Shown in pieces: positions 1 through 36,987 of a stretch of 64,000 nucleotides of DNA. This stretch comes from Loxodes magnus (taxonomy: Eukaryota; Ciliophora; Karyorelictea; Loxodida; Loxodidae). Made by a program: the position numbers and the translations under genes. The stretch lies in contig CAMPDV010000041.1 of the NCBI GenBank assembly GCA_946699065.1, positions 930,001 through 994,000 of the forward strand. Reading direction: 5' to 3'. The notes under the pieces are model-generated. The model made no database searches. It was given only the letters and a program-made list of their open reading frames with translations, and was not told the DNA's origin. Numbering within the stretch: position 1 is the first letter of the stretch; each line of letters opens with the position of its first letter.

Positions 1-2
1 GT

Positions 3-1214: not shown

Positions 1215-1362
1215 AAATTGCTTAACTTAGCTTAGTTTATTAATACTTTTTTATACTTATCCTTATTATCAAACTTAACTATAGTAATGGCTATTTATTC
1301 TGGTATTTAGAGAAATGTACTTTTTTAACTGGCTTATATATGAGAGAATTGAACTTATTGAA

Positions 1363-1390
1363 AAGAAACTAAACTGAAATTTAGTTTCTT
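1363..1390. terminator. 11-bp perfect hairpin between convergent genes
   Basis: AAGAAACTAAA and TTTAGTTTCTT flank a 6-nt loop. It lies between the stops of two convergent genes (1214 and 1461), so a role in 3'-end formation for both is possible. Position only; not otherwise supported. Confidence 0.3.
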
Positions 1391-1460
1391 ACATTTATAA
1401 TATTGTATCTTAAAGGTAAATGATTGGTAATCATTTAAGTGAACTTTAAATAATTAAATT

Positions 1461-1817
1461 TCATTATTGCATTTTACTTTTAGCTGCTTCATCTCCAATT
1501 ATTTTTAAAGTTCCTACTCTTGGATACTTTTTTTAATACTTTTCATACCAATCACTTAGGATTTTTTGCTCTTCTTCGTCTAAAATAGTCAAATCTAGTT
1601 GATTTAGAAATTATTTATCAAAGCTCATCTTTGCCAAGGCAATGGAAGCTTCTTTTCCTGCGAAAAGATGATAGTTACCACTAGGCTTGTAAAAAGGACC
1701 ATCAGTAACATCAAAAATAACTCCCTTGACTGATATTAAAATTCTTTCATTTTCAACTCCATTATACTTTCCTAGTTCCTCTAATGTAATTTCTAGCTGC
1801 TATTACTATTATTCCAT
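1461..1817 (-). CDS. Cytochrome b5-like heme/steroid-binding (MAPR/PGRMC-type) protein
   Basis: 118 codons from ATG at 1817 to TGA at 1461, no internal TGA. It opens MEQQQQQ, four of the Gln codons being TAA/TAG. Residues about 10-110 form a MAPR domain: ITLEELGKYNG, ILISVKGVIFDVTDG, PFYKPSGNYHLFAGKEAS and a C-terminal LSDWYEKYQKRYP helix. This is the membrane-associated progesterone receptor/neudesin fold that binds heme. Trp is encoded by TGG here. Most PGRMC proteins have an N-terminal membrane anchor; this copy has none unless an upstream exon was missed. Bases above 1817 look non-coding. MAPR proteins are linked to P450 and sterol metabolism; the partner here is unknown. Confidence 0.85.
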
Positions 1818-2685
1818 TTTCCTTTTTAATAAGATAAAGTATAAGAATATATCAACAAAAGCTTCTTTAATACATAATTAAACAAGCAGAACGTTAGATT
1901 AAAATAGTCCTTTCTATAAGTTGAAAGTATAAAAGCCATTTCATAGTAATCCATCTAATTACCAGTAATTTGGCTCTTAGATTACACCATGTTATTTATA
2001 CCACAAATTGGATATAAACATCAAGTGTCTTTAAGTCACTAAATGAATGCTAGTAAGAAAGTTATAGTATACGATAATTATTAGCCTTTATCTTAATTAA
2101 ATCTTCTTTGAGGGATAGCAGTTCAGATTAGGAAAACTATTAAACAGAACTAGCTAAATAAAGTAAAGCAGATAATGAAATATAATTACTCTGTAATACC
2201 TTAATATACATATATACTATCATTATACCTAATTACTATACTTCAGATACTAATAGTATGATAATATCCCAAGTAGAACTATCAATTACATTACTTCAGA
2301 CTATTAGTAAGCTAGATTTTTTAATTAATTATAGCTTAAATGTGCTTTTATTAGGCAAAAAGTTAACCTAGTAGAAGATGTTAGTGCCATTTAGTTAATC
2401 TAAAGCTTTTAGGGTAGGTTTAGAAGTATAAGGATTTGATAGTATTCCAGAAATTATTTTACTAAGTTAGCTTAGGCTTTTTAATCAGGAACATGTATCT
2501 AATAGATAAAAATATAGAAGGACAATAATAGTACTAAATCAAAGTATAAGGTATCATAAAATATAGCAGGAAGTATCGTTATTTGATTCAATTGGTTTCA
2601 GAGATATAAAGCACTGTAGGATAAATGAAAACTAGTATTTTATAGCATTAAATTAGAAAATTAAAATAGAAGAAGGCAACTAAAA
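1818..2685. other. AT-rich intergenic region
   Basis: Divergent spacer between the MAPR gene (minus) and the coiled-coil gene (plus). It should hold both promoters. I see no coding pattern, repeat or named motif here. Confidence 0.4.
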
Positions 2686-4773: not shown

Positions 4774-4936
4774 TAAAATAAAGATTGCAATGATTTAATT
4801 AGTAAGCTACAATTCTAATAGTTTAAATACTATTAAAAAGTAGAAAAAGCATTTACTTCAAATACCCTTTTGAGATTATTACTAGTCTGGTAATTTATCT
4901 TATTTAAGACTTTTAATTGCAAAGTGATATTTTTCT

Positions 4937-5009
4937 AGACTTAGTGCTAGTAATATTTTAATATCTACTAGTATATAATAATCATTATAATATTACTAGC
5001 ACTAAGTCT
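4937..5009. repeat. Palindromic element: 21-bp perfect inverted arms, 31-nt spacer
   Basis: AGACTTAGTGCTAGTAATATT at 4937-4957 is repeated exactly inverted at 4989-5009. The flanks outside continue with weak inverted similarity (cttttaattgca against cttttagtagca). It lies just 3' of the coiled-coil gene. It could be a MITE-like or IES-like hairpin element, or a cruciform. Confidence 0.6.
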
Positions 5010-5449
5010 TTTTATTGCTACTAAAAGGGTAGCTATATAATAACCAAACTCATTTTCCTTATTTAATTAATATGTTCCTTTACTTTCAAAGAGCAATATC
5101 AATAATTCTTTCTTTCGCTAGCAATTTAATTCCAAACTATTTTTCAGCTTTCTACTAATATGCTTATTTAATAAAATTACCAATCAAAGATATAATGAAT
5201 ACATCTGATATAATTGTATATTTTAGTGCATATTAATAAAGCTAGAAGTAATTGATAAGTTTGGAGATATAGTGTTATATAGATGAAGCTATAAAGCTAA
5301 TAAATATGAATTGTATGGTTATAGATAAATAGCTATATATGGTTGCTAGTTAATTATATCTAATAATAGAAATAAAGATATCCATTATTTACTAAGAAAG
5401 CTGTAGTATAATATTATATTGTTTACACTAATAAAAGGAAATTACTAGC

Positions 5450-6139
5450 ATGTTACTATCCAATAACTTAAATCTGCAAGAGAAACTGATTGAAGTTATA
5501 AGAAGTGTGGAAATTATAATGGATAGAGTAAATTGGAAAAACGTGCTGTTGTAGTGAAAAAAAAAATTAGCCTTTATCATCTAAACAAAAGAAACTTTAA
5601 ATGATTACTTGATTGTATAAATACTCTTATTTTTACTTAAAATTGTTGGAAAATTAGATTTATAATCCTGCTTTAAATATAAATTCTTAATATTGACATT
5701 AAAAGGTGAAAGAAAAGGGAGATAGTTGAAAGTCTAATTAATGATGTATTTAGTTAAAAACACTGAAATAATTTAATCTTAAAGAATTGCCAGATTTTTA
5801 CCTAACTCTTCTGGAAAAAATTCTATTCTGTTTATATTCATGCTAAGGATGAAATCTTACTGATTAAAAGCCTTATTTAACGAAGATAATTAAACCCTCT
5901 AGCTTATAATATCCACTTTAATTACTTCTGATGCTATTGAACAATTAAAGAATATAAAGAAACTTAATTATATCTATAATCCTAAACAACTTAGCTATTT
6001 AAAATCACTAAAAGGGCCAAGTGTTTATTCATATAAACTCATTTTCAAGCTTCCCGTTAATAATATTTAATAACCTGAAGATCATTAAATAGTATACTTT
6101 ATACTTAGTAATTAAATAGTAATAAAAAGACTGTTCTGA
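5450..6139 (+). CDS. Hypothetical protein
   Basis: 229 codons from ATG at 5450 to TGA at 6137, with two internal TGA codons that must be Trp. Starts MLLSNNLNLQEKLIEVIRS; the middle is Lys/Leu/Ile-rich and the end reads LKSLKGPSVYSYKLIFKLPV. No family recognised. It overlaps the 3' end of the minus-strand gene at 6005-7351 by about 135 bases, so at least one of the two ends is probably wrong. An intron in the region of the first TGA (about 5550) is also possible. Confidence 0.3.
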
Positions 6140-7351
6140 ATAGTTAAATTTTATATAATTAGAATAAGAAGCAAATTCTATTTCTAGAAATATAATAAAT
6201 TAAGCATTGGTTTTCTTCTGAATGATATATGGAGATATATAAGGTATTTTGTTCTTTTGAGACCAATATAGTAGATTTCCTTTGTTAGGATTTATGTCAG
6301 TATTTGTGATTTTATCGGTGATGTTTAATTATTTGAAACTTTTGAAATCTTACTGAATTCCTGTTATGGGATCTATTTTTAATCCGTTTTTTTGCATAAA
6401 TTGATTTTTAACTAAATCTATCACCTGTAAATTATGAGAGATGACATTTAGTTCTTAACAGTTTAATTATGTCCTTTTAGCTCAGTCTAAACTTTACCTA
6501 GTTGATAATCTACTTCCAATTTAACTTAATAGATCTTTACTTTTTGAAGAAGCCGAAATCGAAGTCTTGTTTGTTTGTCTAGAAATCTTAGTATCCAATA
6601 TTTATGGTAGTGTTTCATTACTTTCTTAATGTGGAGAAATATTTTATGATTAAGGTTTTATGTATTCGGGTCAATTTTTAAATCTCTTAAAAGTGCTTAA
6701 AAAATCTTAATTCGGCTAATTTTCATCTCTATCTATAAAAAAATTTTCTGGATAAAATATTCTCTACTGCTTACTCCTAATATCACTACTAAAGCTTCTT
6801 TAATTTATATTTTAGAACCTGCTACTTTTTCCTTTAGTCTTATTCTTCAAATCATTTTTTAAATTAGCACTTTTAGCCTAAATGCTTTTTCTAAGATCTT
6901 CAGACATTCTTAAAAGTGGTTAATTATAAATACTTAGTTCCTAGGTTTATTTCCTCAAGTTTTATTGCTTTTGGCTTAATTCTAAAATATTTTGTTTTAT
7001 TCTATTTACTTCATTAGCGAAAAACTTGTCATTTTTACTTAGAAAATCAAATTTTACTATTTTTTTCTGCTTATCATCTTTAAGCTATTTAACTGACTAA
7101 GCTTTTTATAATGGTTTTCATTCTGGTTTCTTTTTATTTTCAACTTTATCTTAGACTACTTAAATCTATTTAAAGAATGGAACTTTATCCGCCTTTTAGC
7201 GAGTAGCTTGCTTCTCTAATGACTAAGCGTTTTGTGGTTTATTAAGGAGTTAATAATTATTAGTTTCTTTATTGGTTTTCAACTAAATTATATCCTCTTT
7301 AGTTGGCTATTATTAAATTGATCTATAGGATGATTAATGACACTTGCTCAT
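6005..7351 (-). CDS. Lys/Gln-rich hypothetical protein with TGA-encoded Trp
   Basis: ATG at 7351 in an A-rich start context; 448 codons to TGA at 6005. Long disordered N-terminus (residues 1-110), a helical segment near NEVNRIKQNILELSQKQQN, Ser/Gln-rich linkers, and a more ordered end (LKIDPITGIQQDFKSFKQL). Internal TGA occurs in contexts where Trp fits well (PE-W-KPL and FKN-W-PEYIKP), while LLYWSQKN uses TGG, so both codons appear in one gene. The last 40 codons contain one more TGA (6029) and overlap the plus-strand ORF 5450-6139, so the end is uncertain. No family recognised. Confidence 0.6.
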
Positions 7352-8470
7352 TTTATTTACCTTTTACAATAATTCTCCTTTTATCTTTAAAATCATAAAT
7401 AAACCTAAATTATATCTTTCTTAGTATAAACAGTTCTTATATTTCATTTCCCAAATTTTTAACCAATCTAATCTAAGTCTGAAGGGTATAAGCTATAAAG
7501 CAAAGATATGTCAGAGATGTGAGATTTAGATTAAAGTGGAGGAGAGTAAAGAAAAATGACATAAGAAAGTACATTAAGAAAATGACATTAAGCATACATT
7601 TTTACTTATTAAATCTAGATAAATTACTGCTAGTACTTAAATTAGACATCTGCAGTGGAAAATAAGAATATTTCAGTTCATTATCTTAACTTAAAGATCT
7701 TTGAAGAATAAATAAAAGCTGTATTAAGCATTTAGTTTACTAACTTCTAAAGAAGGATTATTAATAATAAAATAAGCTATTATTATGAATCTAAACTACT
7801 ATTATTACTTTTAGTATATATTATAGTAAGCTTGCTTATATATACTATAGCTCTATTTAATTTCTCCTTCCAATTACTCTGCTAGTATTTTCGTTACTGC
7901 TTGCTATTATTTGATCTAATTATACTTAATTCCAATTTAGATTATCTACTAGTTTCATAAATATAAGGATTAGGTATGATTATAATGGAAGGAAATAGAG
8001 CAGTATGGTTATCTTAAGATTGATCTAATAGGCTTATTAGATATAAGTGAATATAATAATACTCAGTAAACTAAATATCTTTATCTAAAAGCTAGTCTCT
8101 ATTATAATATCTAAATACCTTTATAAAGCAACTTTATTTAAATAATTAATAGCATAATAAAGCCATTATAAAGGATTAAAAATAGGAATACAAATAATAA
8201 TAGGAATATAATTACTAAAGAGAGGATATAGTATGTAAAAGGATTATTAGTTAGGGAAATAAATAAGTTATATAAGAATTAAGTTAATTTAAAGTAATTT
8301 AAGGGATTAAAGCATATTTCTTTATATTTAGCAGGTTATTTTTTAATAGTTTAGGCTTTTTAATCAATTAATAGGACTATTCAACAATTTATTAGAATAT
8401 TACCTTATCTTCTTCATTCATTGCTAAACTAAATAAAGAGTTTGTTAGTCTTATGCTAGAAAAAAACGAA
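7352..8470. other. AT-rich intergenic region with imperfect palindrome
   Basis: Upstream region of the minus-strand gene. Contains an imperfect palindrome at about 7812-7848 (TAGTATATA...TATATACTA around AAGCTTGCTT) and, about 150 bases apart, loosely inverted GCTCTATTT / AAATAGAGC blocks (about 7850 and 7995). These may be remains of a small inverted-repeat element. Nothing else seen. Confidence 0.35.
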
Positions 8471-8505
8471 AAGGGAAAAAATAAAAAAAGATAAATGAGA
8501 AGTAT

Positions 8506-9060
8506 ATGTAATTTGAATGATGCAATTTGAATTCTTTATTTGATAATGCTTAAAAAACCTAGAAGAAAGCTAAACGGATAGAAGAGAGTAGTAAAATCCC
8601 TAGTTAATAGAATTTGTAAATGAAAAAACAGTGTTAGCAAAAGTTACTAAGAAAAGATAATATGTTCAAAAGGATAATCAAACCTAGAAGAAGAAAAACA
8701 AAAATGAAAGATGAACTCAATAGAAACTAATTATTTTTATAAGTAATTCTTGATTCAGGCTTTAAGATTATCTGGATGCAACATTGAACTCATTAGTTTC
8801 TTATAAAAGAGGAGCAGAAAATAAATTAGACAAATACAAAGGAAATAAAAGAAAAATAAAGTAAAGATTTGGTATAAAATTAATATAAAGTAGAAGATAT
8901 AAAGGTTTAAATTAATGAAATAGTAACTATTGATACTATTTAAGTTCCTTTTTATTATGGATAGATAATATATTCAATAAAGATATCATATGCGTTAAAT
9001 AAATTTCAATCATTAATAATAATCAAATTAGATATAGTTTTAGGTATATAAACATATAAT
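8506..9060 (+). CDS. Possible basic hypothetical protein, end not defined
   Basis: From ATG at 8506 the frame gives a basic, Lys/Arg/Gln-rich sequence (KAKRIEESSKIPSQQN, IIKPRRRKTKMKDELNRN) with two TGA codons, then hydrophobic sequence. No clear TGA stop is met before the converging gene at 9062, so the end given is the edge of that gene. Weak support; may be partly non-coding. Confidence 0.25.
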
Positions 9061-19734: not shown

Positions 19735-20763
19735 TCATTAATTTTTCAAAAGTTTTTCCAAATCTAAACTTTCTAAATTTTAATTATATAGCTTACATAA
19801 ATAACTTTTAATTAATAAATAATTTATATCTCACTAACTTTATATTTGAATAGATAATCTTTACACAGTATGGTACATCTGTAAACTTCTATAATCTATT
19901 TTAAATCTAACTTAAAGACTTTCTTCTTATAATTCTTACGTTTTGTCTTTTACAAAAGCTTTAGCTATTCTTTCCTCTTATTACCATCTTACTATTGCAA
20001 TAATCTAAAATATTAGATTTTTAAATATATTATTTTTCTTTAAAAACAAAATGAATTCAAGAATTTGTTGATTTTTAAACTCAATTATCACCATAAGAGA
20101 CAGTAGATTACATAGTTTTGCCTAATAAATTTTCTCATTTGAATGATAATTTTGCTTCGATTTTGTTTTCGATAAAATTATTTTATAGATATTTTAGCTC
20201 AAATAATTTATTAACCAAAATGAGTTCTATAAATAAAAGTAGCTTAAATGATTTAAAACTTTTTATTAATGTTATTAAGATTTGCAATAATTCAGAATAA
20301 ACTTAGCTGTTCTTCTCATTTTTTATTCCCATTTTAAATAAATCAATTTACTGTTTTTATAAAAATAAAGCAAAGTGATTGCTTTTAGTTATAGCCTTTT
20401 GAAAGGCTTATAAGTTAATTTCTCATTTTTTCTATTACCATTCTTTATTTTTTCAAACATTAAACTTATTTAACTAATTTATTTTCAATGCTCTATAAGG
20501 CCAATAATTTTCCCATAATTCTTTTGCTTGCAAAATCTATATAAGATATGATATTTTGTAATAATCACTTACCTCAAAAACTTAATTAGTCAGTTCTTTT
20601 TTTCTTTTATCGTTTCAATAAAGATCTTTAAAGCTTATATTAAGCAAAATTTGATTTATCTTAAATCTTATAGCAAGATTTAATTTTTAGATCTATAAGT
20701 AGAATTCTTTATTTATTAAACAGAGTCAAATTCTACTTTCTTCTTTCTTTTTATTAATTTCAT
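19735..20763 (-). CDS. Hypothetical protein, two exons, 36-nt intron
   Basis: Exon 1 20763-20573, intron 20572-20537, exon 2 20536-19735; 993 coding bases, 330 aa. ATG at 20763 (MKLIKRKKKVEFDSVQQIKN). The intron runs GTAAGT...TATATAG, and only with it removed do both sides stay in a convincing frame: exon 1 ends ETIKEKKNWLIKFL, exon 2 goes on RFCKQKNYGKIIGLIEHW and later IIAIVRWQQEERIAKAFVKD. TGA is read as Trp at several places and ends the gene at 19735, with a second in-frame TGA six bases further. Basic, helical, possibly membrane-associated in the middle. No family recognised. Confidence 0.55.
20537..20572 (-). other. Spliceosomal intron, 36 nt
   Basis: GTAAGT at the 5' end and TATATAG at the 3' end on the minus strand; removing it restores the reading frame of the gene at 19735-20763. 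Confidence 0.5.
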
Positions 20764-21027
20764 ACTTCAAAATATTTATCTTATTCCTAAACTATTTATG
20801 AATTATGTTCAAAGAAGCTTAAACATTAATAAATTTATAACTACAACTAAAACTTGAAAGTTAATTACAATCTAGATAATTATGAAGAATAGCTATCAGG
20901 CAAATGTCTTTAAACAGAAGAGTCGAAAACTAGAATAAAGAAATAGAAAGGAATGTAAAAGACTAGCTCTAAAATTAAGTTTATAAATAAAGTTTCTAAA
21001 ATAGTTATAGATAAATATTTAATAAAG

Positions 21028-22293
21028 ATGGAATGAAATGAAATTGCGAATTTTACTTGCATTCATTGCTAAATTGAATTTTATGAAAAACTACGATTTA
21101 AAGATCAGCAGGGTAATTTTATATGTGAAGATTGCATTATTTAAAGATCAAGTAGAAATAACGAAACCAATTAAAAATAATCTCTATCATACTAATTTCG
21201 AGAGCCATAATAACAAATAATTCGATAAGAAGAAAATAAGAATGAAGATGAAAGCATAGAAATTTTATAGGAATTGCAACAAATTGTTTAAGAAATGAAA
21301 AGAAAAATAGTCTAAAAAGATTCTTAAATTAGAAAAGATTTAGATGCTCTAATCATCTTAATTTTGAACGATAATGAAATAAAGTTAATGAACGGTTTTG
21401 ATGAAAAAATTTAGTAATTAAATTAGAAAATCGTAGAATTCAAGAATAATAGAATATTAAATTTTTAGCAGAAAAAAGAGGAAATTGAGTAATTAGTTAA
21501 TAAAGAGTGAATTTAGAATATGTAAGAAGAGATTTAAAAAGTAAATGAAACTAATGAAGAAAATAAAGAAATCATCTTCTAAAGTATTTTTACAATATTT
21601 GAAAGCAAAGCTACTTATGATGGTGATAAAAATGAAGAAGGTAAAAAACAGGGATTTGGAATTATAGAATATGTTAACGGAGATAAATACGAAGGACAGT
21701 TCCATGATGATTAAATTTAAGGAAAAGGAAATTACACTTATTTTAATAAAAGCGTATATGAAGGTGAATTTGTAGGAGGAAAGAAGCAAGGATATGGATT
21801 CGAAAAGTATATCAATGAAGATTATTATTGAGGATAATTTGAACAAAATAAAAAGGAAGGAAAAGGTTTTTTTTCATGAAATACTAAAGACTTTTATGAA
21901 GGTGAATTTTCAAATAACAAATAACATGGAAAAGGTATGCTTAAAAATGTAAATGGAGATATATATGAAGGAGACTTTGAAAAAGGGTGAATGTAAGGGA
22001 AAGGATCCTACTTTTATGAAAATGGCGATCGATATGAAGAAGCTTTTTTCAGAGATAAGAAGCATGGATGAGGAACAGAAATTTTATAAAACGGAGATAT
22101 GTACGAAGGAGAGTTCATATGAGGATTTAAATGTGGAAGAGGAAATTTTTAAACTTTGTAAGGAGAAATTAGATAAGAGGAATGATTTTGAAACAGAAGA
22201 ATACAAGATATTCTTGAAAGAGAAAACCGTTAAAATGAGATTTAAGAAGAGTAGAAAAATGAATTGATAGAGGAGGAAAAGAAAGCGGCATGA
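21028..22293 (+). CDS. Zinc-ribbon / coiled-coil / MORN-repeat protein, copy A
   Basis: 421 codons from ATG at 21028 to TGA at 22291. In order: zinc-ribbon-like C11-x2-C14-x18-C33-x2-C36 (FTCIHCQ...FICEDC), a Glu/Gln-rich coiled coil (about 60-190), then about eight MORN repeats (about 195-375), for example GDKYEGQFHDDQIQGKGNY, and an acidic helical end NELIEEEKKAA. Nine internal TGA codons (codons 3 and 161 and seven from the MORN region on) all sit where Trp is expected, such as YY-W-GQF, KG-W-MQGKG and HG-W-GTEI; no TGG is used. MORN repeats bind membrane lipid or act as scaffolds, and the zinc part suggests a RING/B-box-like role. Residues about 40-65 differ strongly from copies B and C while frame is kept (net 3-base difference), arguing for past selection. 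Confidence 0.85.
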
Positions 22294-22509
22294 AATGTTT
22301 AACTTTTAGAAACTTAAAATAAAATTATTAATTAAGAGTATCATTTTAAATTAATGAATTAATGCTTTCTATTTATTCTTTTTTTTTCAAATAAATAGAT
22401 TTTTAAATTGGTATTATAAAGATTTTCCTTTATATTAATTTCTTTTATTAGTTTTTTTATTTCTTATTAATTTTAACTATAAATTTTTGAATTGCTAAAA
22501 CCAAGGAAA

Positions 22510-23114
22510 ATGGAGAATAATAAATAATCAAAAACTTAATAAAGAAAGGCTAAAAGAAAACCAGACTAGAAAAGATAAAGTAAAAATCACCGGAATCTTT
22601 CTCATCGTTACAAGGATAACGACTATAAGGAATTACGGAAAGAACTTCAATAGCAGAGTAGGAAAATGAATCCATATCTTAAAAATATGATAAAATGAAG
22701 AAAATTCTCAGCAATCAGGATGAGGTAATTTACATTCTTTCATACAGAATAAGAGAACTGATGACATATATTGAGCAATTATCCTTAGAAACGACTTATT
22801 TACAGAAATAACTTGTTTAAAACAAAGTCTTAATAGAAGAACTACTGTGGTGTTAATCCTAAAACAATTAAATTTATTAAGCTTCAATTATCACTGAAGA
22901 AATTAAAAATAGTATTGCAACTATTCAACTAACTGGTTAATCAGAAATTTAAAGAAATGAATTAACTAAAAGATTGGAAAAACTTGAAATTTTTATTATT
23001 CAAGAATAGAAACAAAAATAGAAAATAAAGAGGTGCATATATTACAATTCTTTACGAGATTTAGTAAAAACTGCATTGGCTACAAAATACTTAAAAAATC
23101 AAGAGGAAAAAAGG
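22510..23114 (+). mobile_element. Family A ORF relic (coiled coil), unit 1
   Basis: ATG at 22510 (MENNKQSKTQQRKAKRK). After a frame change near 22,690 it reads NQDEVIYILSYRIRELMTYI and QNKVLIEELLWCQSQ, which aligns with the unbroken family A ORF at 59111-59941 (EETIFKQICQIRELTTNI; IENKLVAHEKLWFQS). Runs into the family B ORF on the same strand. Looks broken by at least one frame change; product by analogy an ORF1-like RNA-binding coiled coil. Confidence 0.5.
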
Positions 23115-23990
23115 ATGTCAGGATTCTTCGCGGCTCCTAAAAAGTAGGAGTTAACGACATCCTAGGAAGGCTAGGACCAGGAAAAGGGTACCAAAAAGGT
23201 CACCCATCAGGATGAGTCTCCCACCTCTGAAGAAAAGTCTAGGAAATAGGCTAAGAATATTATGTGATCAGAAGTCTCGAATCTCATCACATAATAGTAA
23301 ATAAGCTATGATTAACTGATTAAAGTGGTGCTAGACCTCCAGGAAGGGGTTAAAAGTTGAAGAAAGACAATAAAAAGTTAACGGAAAAACTTGAACTTGC
23401 AGAGGAAATAGAATCTAGACTCATGACCTCAGAAAGAGACCTTAATGCATTTCGAAACATATCACAAGACTAAAGCAGCTAATCTCAAAACTAGCAAAAA
23501 AAGCAGAAAGAACTGATTAGCAAATTAGAAAAAATAGAAGAAAACCAGTACAAATTGCAGCTTTAAATGGAATTGAAAGAATAAAGGAATGATCCAATGA
23601 TAATTGAAGATGAAAATATCTCAAGATTTAAATTTAAACAACAAGCAAAAGATGTGATTATTGAACTCTCAAAAGCATCTGTGAAAAAGATGCTAGAAAT
23701 TTCTCAATTTTAAGTAAGCATATTAAAACTAATAGAAGAAGATGGAGAGCAAAAGAAAGAAACAAAAATAACTAAAGCTATCAAGAGAAATATTATACTG
23801 TAACAAATTTGGGGAAATTTAAAAGAAAAAGGCATTTAACATCTAGGTGAAAGAAGAATTAAAGGATAATATGCATGGCAAGGAGAAAAGTTGTAGATAT
23901 TTTCAGATTTTTATATTTAGCTTCTAGAGCAATCTAGAGGTTGGCAGGAAAGAGGTTGAAATACCTTCAAGAACGCCAAAAACTTAATTT
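23115..23990 (+). mobile_element. Family B ORF (coiled coil with -1 frame switch), unit 1
   Basis: Starts MSGFFAAPKKQELTT at 23115; acidic/Gln-rich lead, then QLIKVVLDLQEGVK in one frame and, from about 23,350, KLKKDNKKLTEKLELAEEIE in the -1 frame, continuing as a coiled coil to ILQQIWGNLKEKGIQHLG and SRGWQERGWNTFKN. The leucine periodicity runs across the switch. Two other diverged copies (near 35.1 and 52.1 kb) switch frame at the same place. Weakly recalls ORF1 proteins of non-LTR elements. Confidence 0.5.
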
Positions 23991-24249
23991 TTTATTTTAT
24001 TTGTATTTGTAAATAAAAGCAAGAGGACTAAAGAACCTGAAGAGAATTAGCAAGATCTTTTATAAATAGCAACAGAGTCTACAAAAAAAAGATTAAATAC
24101 AGAATAGATTTGAGTGAGATGGAGTGGAAATCATCCACATAAAAAAAGGTCGAAGAATCCAAACATTATAGAAAATGGAAAGATGGAGGTTGAAATTCCA
24201 AAAATAGCAACTATTTGTAGAATTTTAGTTGATAGCATAATTTATTAAC

Positions 24250-24976
24250 GTGGCGTCACCTTTATTTGGTTTGCCACTAATAAAAAAGTTTAAAGTTTAA
24301 AATTGTCTTAAATGCTATTCCATTTTCAATCTTCTTCTGAGTCTTCTTCTAATAATAATTATTTTACAGTACTCCGTTCACCTGTTTAATTAAAGGTATC
24401 TAGCTTCAATCGAGTTCGATTCAAAACATATTCAAATTTCTTCTTTATTGAGCAAACGTGATGCTTTTCAAAAGTTCATTTCCTGAGTACATCTTTTTTC
24501 TGTATAATAAACCTTCTGGAGGACGTATAGATTACTTATTGATTTTCATAACTTAAAGCTTTCAAGATTTTATTTTTATTAGAATTTTCTTAAATATCTT
24601 AAAATGTGACTAAATTTCCTGCAATATCAGCATTACTTTCTATTATTTACTATCAAATTTTTGCTGGCTGAAGATTCAGCTCCACATTCATGAGTAATTT
24701 GTTGTTGTGAGTTTAGAAATAAGCTTTCCGTAAATTCCACTAATTGATTGAATTTGGATTATATTTGTTCAATTCTCAGATTAGTTGGAAATTGCATTTT
24801 TAGTATTTCTGTGTTAAACATTAAGTATGCGATTTTTCCTTCAAGCTTTTATAAGTTTCTTAAAAGTTTAAAATTCTCTTATACATAGCTTTGAGTTCTT
24901 AGAGTATGTTTTGTTAATCGTAATTTATTTAGGAAGGATTCTGTTTAGAAGAGACTTTTTGCAAGAAATGTTCCAT
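24250..24976 (-). mobile_element. Family C repeat, copy 3, unit 1
   Basis: ATG at 24976 (MEHFLQKVSSKQNPSQINYD), clearly homologous to MENYLQKVSSQKDS of copy 1; then coiled coil, a CWYCRKFSH zinc-type motif in a shifted frame, and FEKHHVCSIKKKFEYVL. More than one frame change, so probably broken. Ends in the hairpin GTGGCAAACC-AAATAAA-GGTGACGCCAC (24250-24277) and a TTAATAAATTATGC tail. Confidence 0.55.
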
Positions 24977-25297
24977 TATTTATTAGTAAAAAATAAATTT
25001 TTTAAATATATTCCTATTTTACTATATCACAACAAGTAATTTCGCAAAATTAGCAAAAAGTAATCTACATTAAACATATTAGAAAAAAATAAAATCAAAC
25101 ATTAAAAAGGGATTTAACTCTATTATATAGAATAACCATCTAGATAAAATCTAAAAAATCAAACTTTGGTAGAATAGCTTAAAAAAAAGCTTAGCCGCTT
25201 CCTTTAATCTCATGGTTTACTTATATTATATGGTTAAAATAATGGTTCTAAATTAAAAAAATTGTTTCATCTGCCCTTAATTGCCGTTAATTTGGAT

Positions 25298-26122
25298 ATG
25301 AAGATATGGAGAGATAAAAAAGTGAAATTAAATGCTGATACTCAGGTTCTATTAAAGATAATTAAATTACTTAATTTATAATGTCAGTGTTTTATTTATG
25401 GGAAGAATAATAGAATTATCTTAAAGAAAATTCCACTTCCAAAATATTTAAGTAAGACATCTTAACCTAGAAATTCATTAGTTATCTATACCAGGAATTT
25501 AAAAATAGCATAGTAGAATTTAGTATTTTTCAAGTTGTATCAATAAGGTAATTTAAAAATGTGAAAAATTATACGAAATTAAATAAGTAAATAGATTAAA
25601 ATTTAACTCTATTCAATTCTTATGGAGCAAAGAAATATTCTAGAATACTATATCCTTAAAAATTAGCGATATTCTTTTAGTTACATGTAGAATTTACGAT
25701 ATTTTATATGGAGTAATAGATGTCAGAGTTTTTAAAATTAAAGAAAAACAGAAATACTTAAAACCGAGCACAACATAGGTAAACAGAAAAGTACCAATGT
25801 TTTTAGATCTATAAATAAAGAAATTACAAAGATACCTAAACTATAAGATTTGGTAAAAAAAATAAACCTGATACATCCCGCTTTATAGAAATGCAAGATA
25901 TATGAAATAGTACATAGCATTGAAAAAGAGAAATGTTAATAGATATTCTCAAGGATGCAGTAATTAATCAAAGAAGCAAGATTTAAATATAGATAAGATA
26001 AAATAAACTGATAGAGAAAGAAGAAAAAAGCAATTAAATGCATTTAGTAATTAATAAATACATAATAGATAATTAAAATATGTTTATCCTATTTGAGATG
26101 AGAAAGATCAAGCCAAGTTTGA
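25298..26122 (+). CDS. Hypothetical protein inside the tandem unit
   Basis: 274 codons from ATG at 25298 (MKIWRDKKVKLNADTQVLL) to TGA at 26120, three internal TGA codons. Reads LKIIKLLNLQCQCFIYGKN, PLPKYLSKTSQPRNSLVIYT, later KIPKLQDLVKKINLIHPAL and a basic end. Possibly the 3' part of a longer gene, since the frame stays plausible upstream of the ATG (LPLIAVNLD). No family recognised. It lies between family C and family D repeats and is duplicated with the unit. Confidence 0.4.
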
Positions 26123-26185
26123 CTATAATAATTTTTAGAAGTAAAATAAGTAGATATTATATAATTCATTTTAAATGGCTTATGG

Positions 26186-26740
26186 TTTCTAGTCGACTGA
26201 GTAGGTAATTCGGCGTAGTCATGTCTTCATTGCAAGTACTCTTGCAATAAATGCCACCACAAACAGTAAGGACGGATCCATTGTGTCACAAGCCTTACTT
26301 GCTTGAGGGTTCTCTCTATCGGTACAAGAGGTTGACTAGAGGAAACCAAAATCTAGATTTCAGAGTTATCCTGATTTCACATGTTGCTATTCTGATCAGG
26401 AATTTTGAAAGCAGCAAAGACATGATTGAGATCCTGAATAACTATTATTTAGAAGAATTTAACCTAGTTGGGTCATTTGACACAAAAATGGAATTTTCTA
26501 ACTCCTTCTAACTCCAGCCTTTGGAAGAATTACAAGAATTTAAAGAGTGAAGGCAATCAATTTTGATTATAAAAACGAAGAGAAGAAGATAAGAATCAAA
26601 GAGATCAGATGAAGCTAGAAACATTTCTAGCCTATTATTAAATAATTAAATTTGGTTTCTTTATTTTTTCGTAGTGAAGCAAACAATAGTGGGACCACGC
26701 TAATTTAATTTATTTATGCTATTATCATTCATTAATTATA
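26186..26740 (+). mobile_element. Family D repeat, copy 3, unit 1
   Basis: The fullest copy. From ATG at about 26221 it reads MSSLQVLLQQMPPQTVRTD, HKPYLLEGSLYRYKRL, then ISHVAILIRNFESSKDMIEI and QLQPLEELQEFKEWRQS, an uninterrupted frame of about 140 codons. The leader ACTGAGTAGGTAATTCGGCG aligns with the 57.2 kb copy. The 3' end has a hairpin-like GTAGTGAAGC...GGGACCACGC (26670-26699) followed by TAATTTAATTTATTTATGC, the same module as the family C tails. Function unknown; perhaps a non-autonomous element with a small conserved ORF. Confidence 0.6.
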
Positions 26741-26749
26741 TGAAATTTT

Positions 26750-28393
26750 TTTTCCTTCACGCTTAATCTTAACGAATCTAAGATTTTGTATAAGGTCTAG
26801 CAACATCCTGAGTCCAATATCTTCTCTTATAAATTCCAAAATTGTAAAATCCAAAGTCTATCTAGCTTATTTCATATCTTCTCAATTTCTTTCTTCTTAA
26901 CTTCTCAAATTAATAGCAATTTCTAAGCAAAAGATTCGGGCAGTGGCAGTATCAGCACTATTCCTTAAGTTTCAAATTCTTCTCTTCATTCCTTTTTTAG
27001 TGATTTAAGCTATAAACTTCCATCAATAAATTTACTCTTTAGTCCCTGTTTTTCGATCTTTTTTATTTAGGATCAACCAATACCTCATCTAACTTAACAG
27101 TTTCTTTCACTTGCTTTTCACCCTTGATTCCAATACTAAAAGATAACATAATATAATATGACGTCAATTTAGATGGATTTTTATGTTTTAGTTTATAAAA
27201 AGACTTGAGAATTATCATAAAACTTATTGAAATAATTCATTTTTTCTCCAGGTTCATATTCTTGGGTACCATATCTACAACCGCTAATTTATCCTTTCTT
27301 TACCGTTGATGTTTTATTCCAATTATTTGCTTGATTTTTCTTTTTAGCATCTATTATTCACTAGAGTAATTAGTCTCCACCAATCATTTTTATCCTGTAT
27401 AGGGGCCTTCAAATGTACAATAAATCTTGGCTAGGTTTTATCATAAATTTTCTTTCGCTTTTTCAATTTTCTGTATCTTCAGCAACTTTTTTGTGTGCCC
27501 TAACCTTCTAAAGAATAATTATAATAAATATAAAAATTTTATTATTTATAATATTGAAACATAATTGCATAGTTACGTTGAATTTAATATGCAAATTATG
27601 TTTAAATAAAGTTTTTATTTCCTTAAGTGTCTTGTTCAAATTCATCTTACAAAATCACTTGAATATGTTTTTCTTAAATATTTTCTTTTCCATTTGTGGA
27701 ATTTATTGATCTTTCATTTTTAAACTCGAATATTTCCTTCTACAGCAACACATCATAATTGGTCTTCTTTTTATTTCTTATTAGTTATAATTTTTTTTGT
27801 TTGATTAATATTTTAATTGGATTAATCAATCTCCATTATATAATTCCTAACTTCAATCCTAAATTGTTCATGATTTATTTATCTGAGGTTTCAAATTCTT
27901 ATCCTTGTCTTCTGCTCTTTTAATTTATAAATAAAAAAAGGTTACAAATACCTTATTATATTTCAAGTCTTACTTTTATTATAGTTTGTAGCAATTTTTT
28001 ATCTTGTGGCCATATTTTTTCAGTATCAGCATTTAACTTTTCTTTTTATTCGAAAACTTATGATGAATTCTGTTTTCTCTTGACTCTGGATTATTTTATT
28101 TGTTGATCTAAATTTTGTCAAATCTCTGATCTAAATTTTGTCGTAAATTTCTTTCGATTGTTCTGAATTATCTTTTCATCTATTAGGAGAGAGACTATTA
28201 GTTAATTTCTTATTTAAGGTTCTATTCATAGATGAAATTACTGATAGTTAGCATAAGAGAATAAGTTTTTTATTTTAGATCCTAAACTTCTTTTATTAGT
28301 TTCCAGTTTTCCAATTGTAGCAAGTAGAAATTATTACTTAAATCTGGTAATTATTTAATTTTGCTCAAGAAGTCTGTTATTCTAAAGAGTCAT
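26750..28393 (-). mobile_element. Family C-like relic, copy 4, unit 1
   Basis: Minus strand from about 28393. Blocks shared with other family C members: LLQLENWKLIKEVQ (compare SLQLDNKKLAKEV in copy 2), KCWYWKN (CxxC position), and WQNLAKIYCTFEGPYTG (compare WENIFKIYCNQEGKLYR). Downstream it reads KGEKQVKETVKLDEVLVDPK. Frames change several times, so it looks broken. Longer than the other copies; part may be a different element. Confidence 0.4.
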
Positions 28394-28539
28394 CCTACTT
28401 TTTATATAATAAATAAATATTGTAAACCAGTACTTTTGTATGCAAATTTAAAAAGAAAATTTTGTTAATTAAAGAAGAAAAAAAAAGAATGAAATTTTCT
28501 AAAATTTGAAGTAATTAGGAAAGATATTCAAAATCCCAT

Positions 28540-28560
28540 AAATAAATAATAATAATAAAT
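28540..28560. repeat. (ATT)n-type 3' tail of the LINE
   Basis: AATAAATAATAATAATAAAT on the plus strand, i.e. a TTA-repeat tail at the LINE 3' end on the minus strand. Short simple-repeat tails are typical of several non-LTR clades. Confidence 0.5.
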
Positions 28561-31500
28561 TTGATTATAGAGCGCGTAGCTTCTCGTTGGTGCGCAGCTC
28601 TTTCCATATCTCAATATATGTACATTACTTCAAGTAAGCCTTCAGGTAATAGAAATTCTTCTCTTATTAATTACATATCTTCCTCATTTTCCACTACATT
28701 ATCTCTTGTTCTTCTGTCTTCTATCTATCTATTCTTTATTAGTTCTTTATTGCAAGCTTTATTTATTTTTTCTTACATATCTTACTAATTTTCAATTCTA
28801 ATTATTTTCTTCTTGATCAAGCTTTTATACAATCATAAAAATTATACTTTTCCTGTTCTATAGTCTTTTCCTATTTCTTTTTTTCATTCAATTTTCTTTT
28901 CTATATATCCACTTTTCCTTTTTTCTAATATATCTTTGATATAATCTTTTACTATCAAGTTAGCTTTAGCTCTTTTTTACTCTTCTTAGGTTCTAATAAA
29001 TTTCTCGAATTTGGCCGTACCTCATATTATATCAAATAGTTCCATTCCTCATTTCTCTACTCCTATTGCTCTAAGATTTCAAATATATTAATATCTTCCT
29101 TCTTTGTATTCTGAACAGTTTTCTTTGATATTTCTTTCATTTTCTCTTGCATTGTTACAGAAAGGGCGTTGATTTTTTATAACTAGGTGTCTTTCTTTTA
29201 AGCAATCCTAGCTCCCATTACATCTCGTTCTTATTCTAAATAGGTAACATATTTCTTCTTTTCTATTTTTATTATATCTTGGTGGTTGGGTGATCCTACT
29301 ACATATTCAAATCGTGTTTTTCTATATTGTAATGTTGTTATCATTTACTCCATTCTTTCTCTATCTTCTACTTATACTCTATATTCTCATATTGCACGAT
29401 TACTGTTTTTCTTTCCTTTTTAATTGCTATTACCATCATCTATAAATATTTCTTTGTCTTCAATTCTTAATTCTAATTTTATTGCTGTGCAATATTATTA
29501 AAATATAAAGTTCTCTTCCTTATTTAAGTCGAACATCAATCCGTCTACTGTTTTTCCTTAGTTTCCTATTAATTTACCTCTTAATCTCAACGTTTTTTGT
29601 CATAGGTAATGTTTAAATTTTATAAGCTGCAATTCGTGCTCTAACATCTCATTTTGCACTTAAAAAAGGGCATCTATGATTGTTCGTAAAGATCTTCTCT
29701 ATATTTCACCTAATTGCTCCATCACTTATTTTCCTACAAACTATTCGCAATATGGGATCACTTCTGTCCCATAACTGATAACTGAACTTACGAAGGTTTT
29801 TATCATTATTCCTGCATTATATGATGTTAATCCCTTATTCATTGTTATTTTTCCTAATATTTATGTTTACATTTTTTATGCTGCTTCTAGTCTATTCTCC
29901 ATGTGTTTTTCAAAACTGATATTCTCTTCTATTATATGACCTAGGTACTAAAAGGTCGTTACTCTTTCGATCCTTAAATTTCCCACCTCGATAGAATTTC
30001 CAATATTTTCTCAGTTCTTATTTTCTGTTGATTTTCATATCTTTCATTTTGTTTTATCTGCATTTTCCAATTTATACTTTTCTGCTTATTAGGTTAAATT
30101 TTAGATTACTTCCTCTAATTATTCCCATTCACTTATTAAGGTTAAGTCATCTGCACATGCAAAACATCCTGCATATTTTTCTTGTGTTCATCCCTCTTCG
30201 TTTTTATATTTTATCGTATTTCCTAGCTTTTAATCTATGAAGAAGTCTTGCTATTATCAAATTAAATAGTCTTGGCGACGTTATACTTCCCTGTTTTAGC
30301 CCTTTACTTGTCGCGAATGATTTTGTTATTTAATAATTTATTTTCAGTTTAATTTCTTCTTCAGTAGAAGTTTATTTATCTATTCCGGTACTTTTTCATC
30401 GTTTAGGATTATCATATATATTTTCTTTGCACTGAGTTATAAGCTTTCTTAATATCCACAAATATTAAAATAACATTTTTGATCCGCATTAATCATTCCT
30501 ATATTGTTCTTAGATTGATGTTTTATAGTGCTCATGATTTACCTTTTTATAAGCCATATTAATATTCTCTTTCATCATTATGTAGATATATTTACAATTG
30601 CTAGAAAATTCATGTGTCTACAAATTTTAAAGCATGATTCAATAAAGAGATTAGTCTATAATTCATCGGATTCATTTATGCTCCTTTTATTTACATTAAT
30701 TCTATGTATTATTTTTTCATCTCGTAAGGTATTACTCCCTCTTAAATCATTTTAGCTTTCATTTTAAAAGTTACTTCTATTAATTTTTTCCCACCTGCTA
30801 AAATTGCTCCTACTTAAATTTCGTCAGGTCCTGCTGCTTTTCATTTCGCCAATTAATTAATGTTTTCTCAAATTTCATATTCGTTTACCACTATTTATCT
30901 CTTGTTTAAGAATTTAATTGGTATCGTATTATCGACATCTTCATATAACTACTATCATTCGTTCCTGAAAGTCTTAACATCTTCTTTTGATAAGGGTACT
31001 CACTAATTATTTTTCTATTAAGTAAGTTTTTTAGTTTCTTCCGCGTTTTTGTCAGGTTTCCTTTATTTGCATTAACCATAAATAGATTAAGTTAATTTTT
31101 TTTATCTTTTTTTCTTGATTAAATGTAATCTTGTCTTACTCTTTGATATTCTCTATATTTCTCGTTTTGTTTATTTTCATTTATTTTTACGTTGCCTTTT
31201 ATCCTTTATTTTAATTGTTTGCTGCATTTTCTAAAAATTTTATTATACTATTTTGTTGCTTCTGAGTATTTCTATATCTTAAAGTTTTATGTTTTAACTA
31301 TTCCATATACCATTTAAGATCTTTCTTATTCTTTTTCTTTATCATTTGCAAGTCTTCGTTCTGTTTAGGCTTTCAATTTCTTCTTTTTAGATATTTTCTT
31401 TTATAAATCTTTCAAATTTTTCTTAGATCTCTTTTTTCTTTAATAGTAGGTAATTTATTTTTGCTATCTTTTATGATTTTCTAATTTTTTTACCAATCTT

Positions 31501-33980
31501 AATCTATATAAAACCAGGTCTATGGTTCCCTATTACGTATGAGTAATAAAAATCACTTTTTATACCTTTTTTTCATTATCTTTTCAATTAAAAAGTAATC
31601 TATTTTATATTCATTGTTTTAGTGAACGAAAGTACCTATTTCAATTGATCAAGGCATATTAAATTATTCTTTTCCATTAACTGTAGCATTCTCTTACTAG
31701 CTGAGTTTGTTTTCTTTGGTAGTCATTACTCTATGTGCGCATTTCAATCTCCTATGATTATTACATTAAGTCCTTTTTCTGTTGCTTATAGTTTAAATTG
31801 GTTCGGTAAATTATAGAATGGCTCATATTATTAGTTGTCATTTGTCACAGATGCATATATATATTTATTACTACAATTTTCTCCTTATTTCAATGGCCAT
31901 CACTCTCGCTCCTCCAAAAAGTGTCATTCGGTTGACTTCATTCTAGGATTCTCCGATCTCCTTAGATATGTCGTTTCTAATATAGAATGCTACTCCTTTC
32001 CCTTTTTTGACCCCACATTTATAACGTTTTAATATCCTGCTGTATTACACATATCTTTTTAATCTTCAATCTAAATCTCTTATATTGCCATTATATGGAT
32101 ATTTTTTGTCTCATTAATTTGGCTAGTGCCTCTTTTGCACTTCTAAAACTCCTAACAATTGCTTTCCCTATTTTTATGACTTATTATTATTCTACTTTTT
32201 CACCCATCTCCTCTGCTTCCTCTTCATCGCTTTCTTTTTTTTATTCATCTTCATTCATCATTTTTCTTCATCTTATCTATCATTCTCTGCTTCCATATTC
32301 TTTTCATTATTATTACTTTCCCCTTTTTTATATTTTTTCCATTTACTATCTATCTTTTCCTTCTTCTTATCTCTTCTATACTTCTTCTTTTGCCCTTTCC
32401 AATTAATTGATTTGGGTAATTGCTCATTTTTGTTTTTTTGGTTTCTTAGCATAGTAAATTCTAATTAAAGTTTGTTTCAGTTTGCTTCTTACTTCTCACT
32501 TTTATATTGCATTTTATTCTTTTTCTTATTGAGCTTGCTCTATTTCTTTTTGTTATTTTTCTTAATTTACGCTTTTCCTTACATATTACATTATGTTATT
32601 TTGCTTGTTTCTTATTTTTCTTCTGTAAGGGTTTAGCGTTTTTACCATCACTTATTCTATCCTTTTCTCTGATTTGTTTTATATTATATCTTATTATATA
32701 ATTGTTTGCTTTCTACTTTATTTAGTTCTATGAGCATTTCTCTATCCCTCTGCTTTACATAAATCCAATTCCATTTTATGAAAAATAATTCTTATTTATT
32801 CATTTCGCATAAAAGACTTTTTATTATTTAATTGTTTAGTTGTTTTAATTATTTTCCTATTCTCCTTGTTTTATTTCCTTCTCTTCTTCATCAATTATCG
32901 TCTTATTTGTTTGATTTGCTTTTAATTCTGGTTTGTTTATTGCTAATTTAACTTCTCCTTCAAGCATCTCTAATTCTCTTATATGTAGTGTTTTCCTTTT
33001 TGCTCCTTCCACCCTTCTGCATTGCTGATCTATGAGCCCTTTCAATTTGCATAGACAGCAGATAAAATTTACTGGGTGCTGTATTCTCATTTTGTTTCCG
33101 TTCAAGTCTATAACTTCTGGTATCCTCTTTGCTTCGTCTATATTCTTTAAATCAAGTACACTACACTGCTACCTGTTAGCATTTTGTAGTGTTTGGGTAT
33201 TTATTCCATACCTCTCCTCTAGATTTTCCATGCTACCTCATTTTCTTCATTACTTCCTTCATGTTTGAATATCCGTTTATTATAAAGAAACAGGGTAGTT
33301 ATGAATGTCAAAGTATTCTAATTAGTTTCTTGCTTAGATAGGAATTCTAACGCTTTTAAATGTTCATTCCCTGAATTAAGCGAATCTAGTATCTTTCTTC
33401 ATTGTTGAGCATTAAATATACGATTCCGTTTTGTTTGACGATGAATTTGACCACTGTTTGTCCGTACTCGCTTCATATTTGATTCCTAAACACTTGTGTC
33501 ACTTCTTAGTCTATGATCTTTTTCTCTATTAAATCAGTATTTCCAGATAGTGGTTAAAATAAACTGCGAACGCCATATCTGATAGATTACCATAGGAATT
33601 TTAGTAAACCCTTACCATTTATTCTTCAGGGATGTTGGTTGAAATTAGTTGTTCATTCTTTTATTAAATTATATCTTAGGTTGTGACTATTATTACCATT
33701 TCATTCCTTTCTTATTTTATGCTCCTCTTTTTAGTGAAGTCCGTCCAATCATAGATATATTGATATCCTTTTTCCGTTAAGTGTAATATATCATGTTTCT
33801 TTGATCAGTGAAAATGGTTCCATGTAGCCTGAGAGCTTGTGTTATGAGTCTGGCTTCCATACGTAATAAAGAAGGTTGGGTTAATTAAAGCAAAGACGTG
33901 GTAGAAGAAAGTGCTTCAGGTTTTCTCTCCTACATTGAGAAAGTGGTGAAAACCCTTCTTGAAGCTAACCATTTTTTAAT
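28541..33980 (-). mobile_element. Non-LTR retrotransposon (LINE) with APE endonuclease and reverse transcriptase, unit 1
   Basis: Read on the minus strand. ORF1-like start at 33972 (MVSFKKGFHHFLNVGEKT...) with a switch to the -1 frame near 33,560. Second ORF from 33231 (MENLEERYGINTQTLQN) with a cysteine cluster ICCLCKLKG. APE endonuclease about 32,100-31,480: IMAIQEIQIEDQ, GVAFYIRND, and GDWNAHIE near 31,750. Reverse transcriptase about 31,000-29,300: KAAGPDEIQ (30,830), GLKQGSITSPRLFNLII (30,310), FACADDLTLIS (30,150, the catalytic DD), NADKTKW. TGA is Trp in GDWN, RGWT and TKWKIW, while TGG also occurs. Frame changes near 33.56, 32.0 and 31.65 kb make it look inactive unless these are sequencing errors. 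3' end: a short hairpin then a (TTA)n-type tail. Confidence 0.85.
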
Positions 33981-34440
33981 AAATATAATAAATACAAATC
34001 ATTAGCAAAATTAGAAACTTGTATAAGAAGGGATATAACTTTGCTAATTTAAACTAGAAGAACGCTCAAAAAAATCACATTTAATGCAGAAATAGAATTG
34101 GAAAGTATATTAAAACGGATATCAAATGAGAAGAAAAATTGAAGTAAATTAATATATGAAATTGATGGATAAAAATACTAAGATTCAAAATACTAGGAAT
34201 ATACTGAAAGAAATATTATCACTGTGGCTCAACCCTTTGTTTAGTAAAGGATTTTAAGATGTTAAAAACTGGAAGAAGGAAAAGAATAAAAAATATAGAA
34301 ATCTAAAGCAAATTGCTCTGAAATAATTGATATATACATAGAAAATATTTGCTTCTCTCTGTGCTACTTATAAAATGCTGTAGGGAAAACTAGAAAAAAT
34401 CGATCTAAAGATATACTTAATATGAAAAGGAGAGTTGCAT
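33981..34440. other. Spacer between LINE and family B copy
   Basis: AT-rich; the plus strand reads plausibly in places (ERNIITVAQPFVQ) but I find no start, stop or homology that supports a gene. The same in unit 2 (48,683-49,142). Confidence 0.25.
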
Positions 34441-35299
34441 AGCTTTCAAGCATTTCTTTAATTAATTGTTATTAAAATGTCTGCGGTGTCCGACAGATTA
34501 CCGCTTAATAAAGTTTTGAAGTTTGGATTTAGTTTTTTACGAGCTCTAGGAATCGAGATTCTTGTCTTATTGTACTTTTATCTTAAAATTTCTAGTTCTA
34601 GTTCCAAATCCATTTTCAACTAATAAATCACTCCATTCTCTACGCTTAAGATCTAATTTTCTCTTCTCGTTATTTGTTATTAAATTTGTTTCTGCCATGG
34701 TTTTTCCTTTATTTTACAAAATTCTATTCTTCCATAAATGGTATTTACTTTTTATAATAATATGTTTTCTAAATTTAATTATTTTCCTTCTTTCTTTATT
34801 TCTTTAGGAATCTTTTCAACTCCATTTTTCATTCTGTTTTTGTTAAAGCTAATTCTTCTAACTTTTTAAAATGTTTTTAATCTAAGAGTTTTAAGCTTAG
34901 ATCCTCTCTACATGGAAATTCGTCTAACTAAATTACTCTCGTTTGTAACTCTAAAGAGTGCCGATCTCCATCTTTTCATTTGCCATTCTAAGGTTTGAGA
35001 TGTCTTGAAGTTCGTGAAGGATCTTTTCTGTCAGCTTCTCATTCTCCTTTCTGAGTTCCTGACCTCTTTCTGGAGGTTTAGTACTAATTTGATGAGCTAT
35101 TCCTCATTCATCTGATCAGAGGGATTGAGCTCTATAATCTCTTGATGCAAACAAGATTCACTTTTTTCCTGGGTTATTCTACCAATATTGGCGTTAGTGC
35201 ATGCGCAAATTTCTGAAATTGTTTTTGCTCATCCTATAGTCGCTACGTGTTAGTCTACTATTTCTTAGAAGCTAAAAATCTCTTTTTGAAGTCCGACAT
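34440..35299 (-). mobile_element. Family B ORF, diverged copy, unit 1
   Basis: ATG at 35299 (MSDFKKRFLASKKQQTNTQ), matching MSGFFAAPKKQ of the 23.1 kb copy. Then MNEEQLIKLVLNLQKEV and, in the -1 frame, ELRKENEKLTEKILHELQD, at the same place as in the other copies. Further on MAETNLITNNEKRKLDLKRR reads well. At least one more frame change upstream of the switch; probably broken. Confidence 0.5.
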
Positions 35300-35724
35300 T
35301 TTCTCTTCTTTGTTTATCTTTCAAGGATTTCTTGAGTCTAATATTTTATTATATCTTATTATAGCAAATAAATTTGAATTTTAAGTATGTTAAGCAATAT
35401 TCTTTATCCATTAAAAGAAACTTTAAGTTCTTCTTAACTATTTTATTCATTTTAAACCTCATAGCATTTACCATATCTATAAATTGTTTCAAGTATCTAA
35501 AATAAGAAGAAGTCAAATTTAATAAATTCAAAAATAAAACTTGCAACTAGCAAATTCAAATTAAAATCTAGATAATTATGAAAAATGATCTATCAGGCAA
35601 ATGTCTTTAAACAGAAGAGTCGAAAACTAGAATAAAGAAATAGAAAGGAATGTAAAAGACTAGCTCTAAAATTAAGTTTATAAATAAAGTTTCTAAAATA
35701 GTTATAGATAAATATTTAATAAAG

Positions 35725-36987
35725 ATGGAATGAAATGAAATTGCGGATTTTACTTGCTTTCATTGCTAAACTGAATTTTATGAAAAACTACGATTTAAAG
35801 ATCAGCAGGGTAATCTTATATGTGAAGATTGCATTATTTAAAGATCAAGTAGTGACTACGAAATCTTTTCTGACTAATCCAAGCCTGATTAAGAATAAGA
35901 GCAAAAATAAAAAATACGATAAGAAGAAAATAAGATTGAAGATTAAAGCATAGAAATTTTATAGGAATTGCAACAAATTGTTAAAGAAATGAAAAGAAAA
36001 ATAGTCTAAAAAGATTCTTAAATTAGAAAAGATGTAGAAACTCTAATTGCCTCAATATTAAACTAAAATGGAAAAAAGTTAATGAACGATTTTGATGAAA
36101 AAATTTAATAATTAAATTAGAAAATCGTAGAATTCAAGAATAATAGAATATTAAATTTTTAGCAGAAAAAAGAGGAAATTGAGTAATTAGTTAATAAAGA
36201 GTGAATTTAGAATATGTAAGAAGAGATTTAAAAAGTAAATGAAACTAATGAAGAAAATAAAGAAATCATCTTCTAAAGTATTTTTACAATATTTGAAAGC
36301 AAAGCTACTTATGATGGTGATAAAAATGAAGAAGGTAAAAAACAGGGATTTGGAATTATAGAATATGTTAACGGAGATAAATACGAAGGACAGTTCCATG
36401 ATGATTAAATTTAAGGAAAAGGAAATTACACTTATTTTAATAAAAGCGTATATGAAGGTGAATTTGTAGGAGGAAAGAAGCAAGGATATGGATTCGAAAA
36501 GTATATCAATGGAGATTATTATTGAGGATAATTTGAACAAAATAAAAAGGAAGGAAAAGGTTTTTTTTCATGAAATACTAAAGACTTTTATGAAGGTGAA
36601 TTTTCAAATAACAAATAACATGGAAAAGGTATGCTTAAAAATGTAAATGGAGATATATATGAAGGAGACTTTGAAAAAGGGTGAATGTAAGGGAAAGGAT
36701 CCTACTTTTATGAAAATGGCGATCGATATGAAGAAGCTTTTTTCAGAGATAAGAAGCATGGATGAGGAACAGAAATTTTATAAAACGGAGATATGTACGA
36801 AGGAGAGTTCATATGAGGATTTAAATGTGGAAGAGGAAATTTTTAAACTTTGTAAGGAGAAATTAGATAAGAGGAATGATTTTGAAACAGAAGAATACAA
36901 GATATTCTTGAAAGAGAAAACCGTTAAAATGAGATTTAAGAAGAGTAGAAAAATGAATTGATAGAGGAGGAAAAGAAAGCGGCATGA
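35725..36987 (+). CDS. Zinc-ribbon / coiled-coil / MORN-repeat protein, copy B (chimeric)
   Basis: 420 codons, ATG 35725 to TGA at 36985. Domain order as copy A. The zinc part reads DFTCFHCQTEFYEK, and residues about 40-70 (SSSDYEIFSDQSKPDQEQEQ) are as in copy C, not A. From about 36,345 onward it is like copy A. It keeps all nine internal TGA codons. Frame is intact over the whole length under TAA/TAG=Gln, TGA=Trp. Confidence 0.85.

Follow-up and report, generated by a model that had tools for sequence, protein, structure and literature searches.

The code of Condylostoma magnum is listed as NCBI table 28, and work on the karyorelict code was reportedly carried out by Seah, Singh and Swart (2022). 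In the cited passages describing the MAC assembly of Loxodes magnus (706 Mbp), karyorelicts, including Loxodes, are stated to use NCBI table 27; its only stop codon, UGA, is also read as Trp where the poly-A tail lies sufficiently far downstream (PMC11441545). The cited parts of a second study report translation of UGA as Trp from mass spectrometry (in a passage that names no species), ribosomes passing UGA codons in profiling (in a figure whose legend gives C. magnum) and, for C. magnum, all three codons inferred as stops too (PMC4967479). The locus described here shares with C. magnum the use of TGA both as Trp and as a context-dependent stop, and differs from it in that the stop is TGA, whereas TAA and TAG run through the gene. 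As under table 27 in Loxodes and Parduczia, in-frame TAA and TAG stand for Gln, conserved genes have internal TGA at their Trp columns, and an AT-rich sequence comes after the terminal TGA; there is no difference in kind.

The window (the whole stretch of DNA that was analysed, 64,000 nucleotides) carries a gene for a MORN-repeat protein in three tandem copies. The following features were distinguished:

20678-35371, no strand: tandem unit of 14.7 kb, repeating from position 35372 (99% identity over 16.4 kb aligned)
21028-22293, plus strand: MORN-repeat protein gene, copy 1 (frame, Pfam, phmmer and column alignment)
22291-22293, plus strand: TGA taken as the stop of copy 1 (steep GC drop after it, no further in-frame TGA)
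35725-36987, plus strand: MORN gene copy 2, an apparent crossover hybrid (codon-by-codon likeness to copies 1 and 3)
50427-51689, plus strand: MORN gene copy 3, with eight internal TGA codons (codon 268 is TAA)

When TAA and TAG are read as Gln, positions 21028-22293 of the plus strand form a single frame of 421 codons followed by a terminal TGA, as stated in a preliminary description made from the sequence alone. The codon count agreed with that description also in the nine internal TGA codons (codons 3, 161, 268, 284, 321, 348, 365, 386 and 388), the lack of any TGG and the TGA end; the in-frame TAA and TAG codons number 33 (27 and 6, respectively). TGA accounts for 2.1% of the codons (9/421) of this one gene, compared with 0.120% in the cited passage on Parduczia (PMC4967479). 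The product belongs to the MORN family (PF02493), matching the Pfam model with 81.6 bits, above the curated cut-off of 22.5, in six stretches (E ≤ 1). With TGA translated as Trp, residues 196-380 were aligned by phmmer with the solved MORN1 protein 6t4r as one stretch across five TGA codons (E 1.5e-27), and even with TGA translated as X, matches to homologous loci within this genome extended across TGA codons (best E 3e-49). The MORN repeats occupy residues of about 200-380. Tandem MORN repeats are common to copy 1, flagellar MORN proteins and those MORN1 proteins whose structure has been solved (PDB 6t4r and relatives), whereas three features seen by eye set copy 1 apart: (i) a CxxC...CxxC motif at the N-terminus, (ii) a helix-like middle region, and (iii) Phe at position 5 of its seven clear repeats, a position which we take to be the canonical Trp of the repeat.

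The GC content falls from 0.313 over the last 33 codons of copy 1 to 0.13 over the 100 bases after position 22293, and no in-frame TGA was found within 100 codons past that position. Because of these two properties, the TGA at 22291-22293 can be regarded as a credible stop.

The part of the window between 20678 and 51799 is a 14.7-kb tandem duplication whose borders carry the three copies of the MORN gene. Eight of the nine internal TGA codons are common to all three copies, the exception being codon 268, which is TAA in copy 3. Through codon 129 (codon 123 excepted) copy 2 resembles copy 3, and from codon 210 onwards (codon 264 excepted) it resembles copy 1; it looks like the hybrid that an unequal crossover within the gene would give, with a breakpoint between codons 130 and 209. 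Pfam was additionally run on positions 26001-35003 (minus strand), 22300-26202 and 52000-56002 (plus strand) and 1-9002 (both strands), and revealed only two weak domains there, which were not used for a second test of the code. One, within the tandem unit at about 31.6-31.8 kb (minus strand), is a weak match to the endonuclease-reverse transcriptase PF14529 (E 6.9e-6; 26.4 bits, cut-off 27.4), probably derived from a LINE-type element and presumably present in a second copy in the repeated unit. The other is a cytochrome b5-like domain (PF00173; 24.7 bits, cut-off 23.7) at about 1.5-1.8 kb on the minus strand.

The preliminary description had placed the nine TGA codons at Trp positions of the protein. 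For comparison, copy 1 was aligned with homologues at 25 loci of this genome, giving 27 aligned pieces; locus L087 lies inside L004, so that one place is counted twice, and without it there are 26 pieces and the residue counts per column drop by at most one. Codon 3 has no homologue, which leaves eight testable TGA columns. Their residues were as follows: column 161, Leu/Thr (two residues only, one without L087); column 268, Glu 24 and Gln 3; column 284, Tyr 19, Ala 5 and Cys 2; column 321, Leu 11, Met 10, Phe 4 and Pro 1; column 348, Gln 10, Tyr 9, His 4, Phe 1 and Lys 1; column 365, Glu 18, Arg 3, Asp 2, Val 1 and Lys 1; column 386, Tyr 10, Phe 7, Trp (TGG) 2 and TGA 2; column 388, Lys 15, Asn 3, Leu 1 and Gln 1. 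Trp exceeds the background in one of the eight (386), and Tyr is the top-scoring residue at columns 284 and 348, the latter being mixed Tyr/Gln. The three sites put forward as demanding an aromatic residue, YY-W-GQF (codon 268), HG-W-GTEI (348) and KG-W-MQ (321), are among the weaker columns: the first is dominated by Glu (24 of the 27 homologue residues aligned there, the other three being Gln), the second a mixture of Gln, Tyr and His, and the third is occupied by Leu, Met or Phe. The MORN gene alone would not prove that TGA encodes Trp, because its TGA columns align with other residues, the very outcome that the preliminary description had named as counting against its claim.

These columns could suggest that TGA in the MORN gene encodes another residue, for example Tyr or Gln, as in the scores summed over the eight columns Tyr ranks first and Gln second, with Trp outside the best eight. 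However, every residue's sum is below zero, so that no residue fits, the remaining genes of the genome indicate Trp (see below), and we know of no mechanism for a gene-specific codon meaning; we consider this reading very improbable.

Nor does the number of TGA codons, for which chance decay of TGG had been dismissed, carry the argument. Given how often each base occurs at the first, second and third codon positions of copy 1, 8.8 TGA codons are expected and 9 are observed; the corresponding values are 28.7 and 27 for TAA, 6.8 and 6 for TAG, and 2.1 and 0 for TGG (Poisson probability 0.12). The counts of TGA, TAA and TAG are what the base composition predicts. Internal TGA would be an ordinary sense codon here, and the change from TAA to TGA is a single transition that would replace Gln by Trp; at columns 268 and 348, TAA (Gln) is found in some of the homologues. 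Trp at Glu, Gln, Lys or hydrophobic columns most likely arose through ordinary drift of this kind in a tolerant protein.

The meaning of TGA was then sought in the genome assembly (705,730,643 bases in 7843 contigs), in which the window occupies positions 930001-994000 of contig C41. For actin, 20 loci out of 96 matches were picked by hand and are mostly TGA-bearing, so the TGA:TGG ratio among them does not represent a genome-wide average. Seven of them (L058, L060-L064 and L066), whose match is split among several frames, were left out of the main count. In the 13 copies with a single BLAST piece, 9 of 19 TGA codons stand opposite the four Trp columns of the reference actin, an enrichment with a binomial p of 1.6e-13 that assumes independence and is overstated, as the copies are related; of the other ten TGA codons, five face Phe 334, within a single group of similar copies, and five lie at other sites. 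When all 20 loci are counted, including the seven broken ones, 10 of 39 are opposite Trp. In the actin copy L049, aligned with a solved actin, TGA codons 76 and 337 are opposite Trp, while 38 and 43 are at non-Trp sites. By eye, TAA codons 118, 134 and 350 of this copy are opposite Gln of the solved actin (three of seven, the other four being opposite other residues), as are TAG codons 260 and 350 (same numbering) of copy L039 (two of seven); neither of the two TAG codons of L049 is opposite Gln. The assignments of table 27, TGA to Trp and both TAA and TAG to Gln, are each found in this genome.

The 40 actin matches that rank highest, at 458-460 bits apiece, come from several contigs and contain no TGA; besides broken actin copies, the genome holds many close, full-length ones.

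Many ciliates that read TAA and TAG as Gln retain TGA as a stop. TGA could be such a normal stop here also, with the frame of copy 1 arising by chance or being split, and the lack of TGA within the matched stretch of the 44 best of the 96 actin matches would agree with this. Against it stand the MORN homology in one frame that spans TGA codons, the TGA at actin Trp columns, the eight TGA codons common to three copies and the published code of the inferred species. In our view the actin and MORN columns have refuted this explanation already, and we regard it as extremely improbable.

The MORN sample likewise consists of hand-picked regions (20 of 173 matches), mostly TGA-bearing, and its TGA:TGG ratios are not genome averages. 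From 25 loci (24 places), with the gene of the window excluded and near-duplicates removed, a set of 124 repeats was obtained. Position 5 of the repeat holds 30 of the 52 TGA and 18 of the 20 TGG codons of this set, and position 18 holds 13 more TGA and no TGG. In the summed column scores for TGA in MORN repeats, Tyr (105.5) and Phe (71.5) are ahead of Trp (53.9), and the position profile of TGA (in the redundant set) correlates with those of TTT and TGG alike (r 0.89 for each). Taken alone, the MORN repeats identify TGA as aromatic; the actin columns identify it as Trp. We conclude that TGA is Trp in this genome, in agreement with the published code. The preliminary reading of TGA as Trp thus stands genome-wide, on the actin columns and position 5 of the MORN repeat, and falls as it was argued from the MORN gene alone, and the karyorelict ciliate that it proposed as the source is very likely.

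WD40 repeats were dropped as a test for Trp; 30 loci of 150 matches resembled near-identical arrays. In five of these loci (L009, L011, L017, L026 and L033; contigs C1503, C119 and C9) the units are very similar, and TGA alternates at variable sites, with Ser at the one that follows GHxD/GHxN and with Phe at a different one. A scan with two strict tRNA patterns gave no match for a UGA-reading tRNA, but also none for the CCA control. Among the tRNA matches that were scored, 57 of 63 share a score of 74.0 (contigs C78, C103, C158 and others), and several are spaced regularly, at 527 or about 1753 bases; the score-74.0 matches may be tRNA gene arrays or a tRNA-derived repeat.

The main rival disputes only whether the MORN gene is alive: its copies would be decaying pseudogenes and the code still table 27, with an untranslated frame whose TGA codons are mutations at non-Trp sites. 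In-frame stops cannot betray a pseudogene under table 27. That most TGA columns are not Trp columns, that TGA, TAA and TAG all occur at the frequency expected from composition and that codons 41-70 form a block of high divergence between copies 1 and 3 would all fit such decay. The MORN homology, however, is unbroken over 185 residues, and dN/dS is below one at p < 0.05 in two of three comparisons (0.51, p 0.015 against neutrality, for copies 1 and 3; 0.34, p 0.031, for copies 2 and 3), with no significant departure from neutrality in the third (0.65, p 0.13, for copies 1 and 2); the three are interdependent, copy 2 being a hybrid of the other two. Gaps argue in the same direction: between copies 1 and 3 there is one, of 3 bases and in frame, in 1263 aligned coding bases as compared with seven in 453 aligned flanking bases, a difference with p 0.0005 per base that is not significant when scaled per substitution (p 0.074). 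These figures come from the global MAFFT alignment of the duplicated stretch, which has 8 gap openings, against 23 by blastn. All three copies retain the frame. Selection on the copies appears to be purifying and mild, and the gene reads as loosely constrained; a recent pseudogene is possible and, in our judgement, unlikely.

The locus is very probably that of a real, loosely constrained MORN gene of Loxodes (most likely from the L. magnus somatic assembly), present in three tandem copies and read by table 27; we infer both the species and the translation of the gene. TAA and TAG would be translated as Gln, and TGA inside the gene as Trp; the final TGA, beside the AT-rich 3' end, would act as the stop. 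This reading of the code is right and already published; the code is not new, and nothing in it is extended.

A genuine altered code was recovered from raw sequence alone in the preliminary description. In-frame TGA codons in one repetitive gene are not evidence of Trp columns, for which conserved genes, such as actin, or many repeats are needed. We tentatively suggest, as an idea that is rather unlikely to hold, that the altered code itself steers protein drift toward Trp: as a single transition separates TAA (Gln) from TGA, Loxodes genes that evolve fast under weak constraint would gather TGA-coded Trp at non-Trp sites. If this is true, copy 1 would be an extreme case, its TGA frequency being that expected from composition, as against none in the 44 best actin matches (of 96). 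For the annotation of Loxodes genomes, TGA-rich and TGG-free genes are hard cases when gene and pseudogene are to be told apart.
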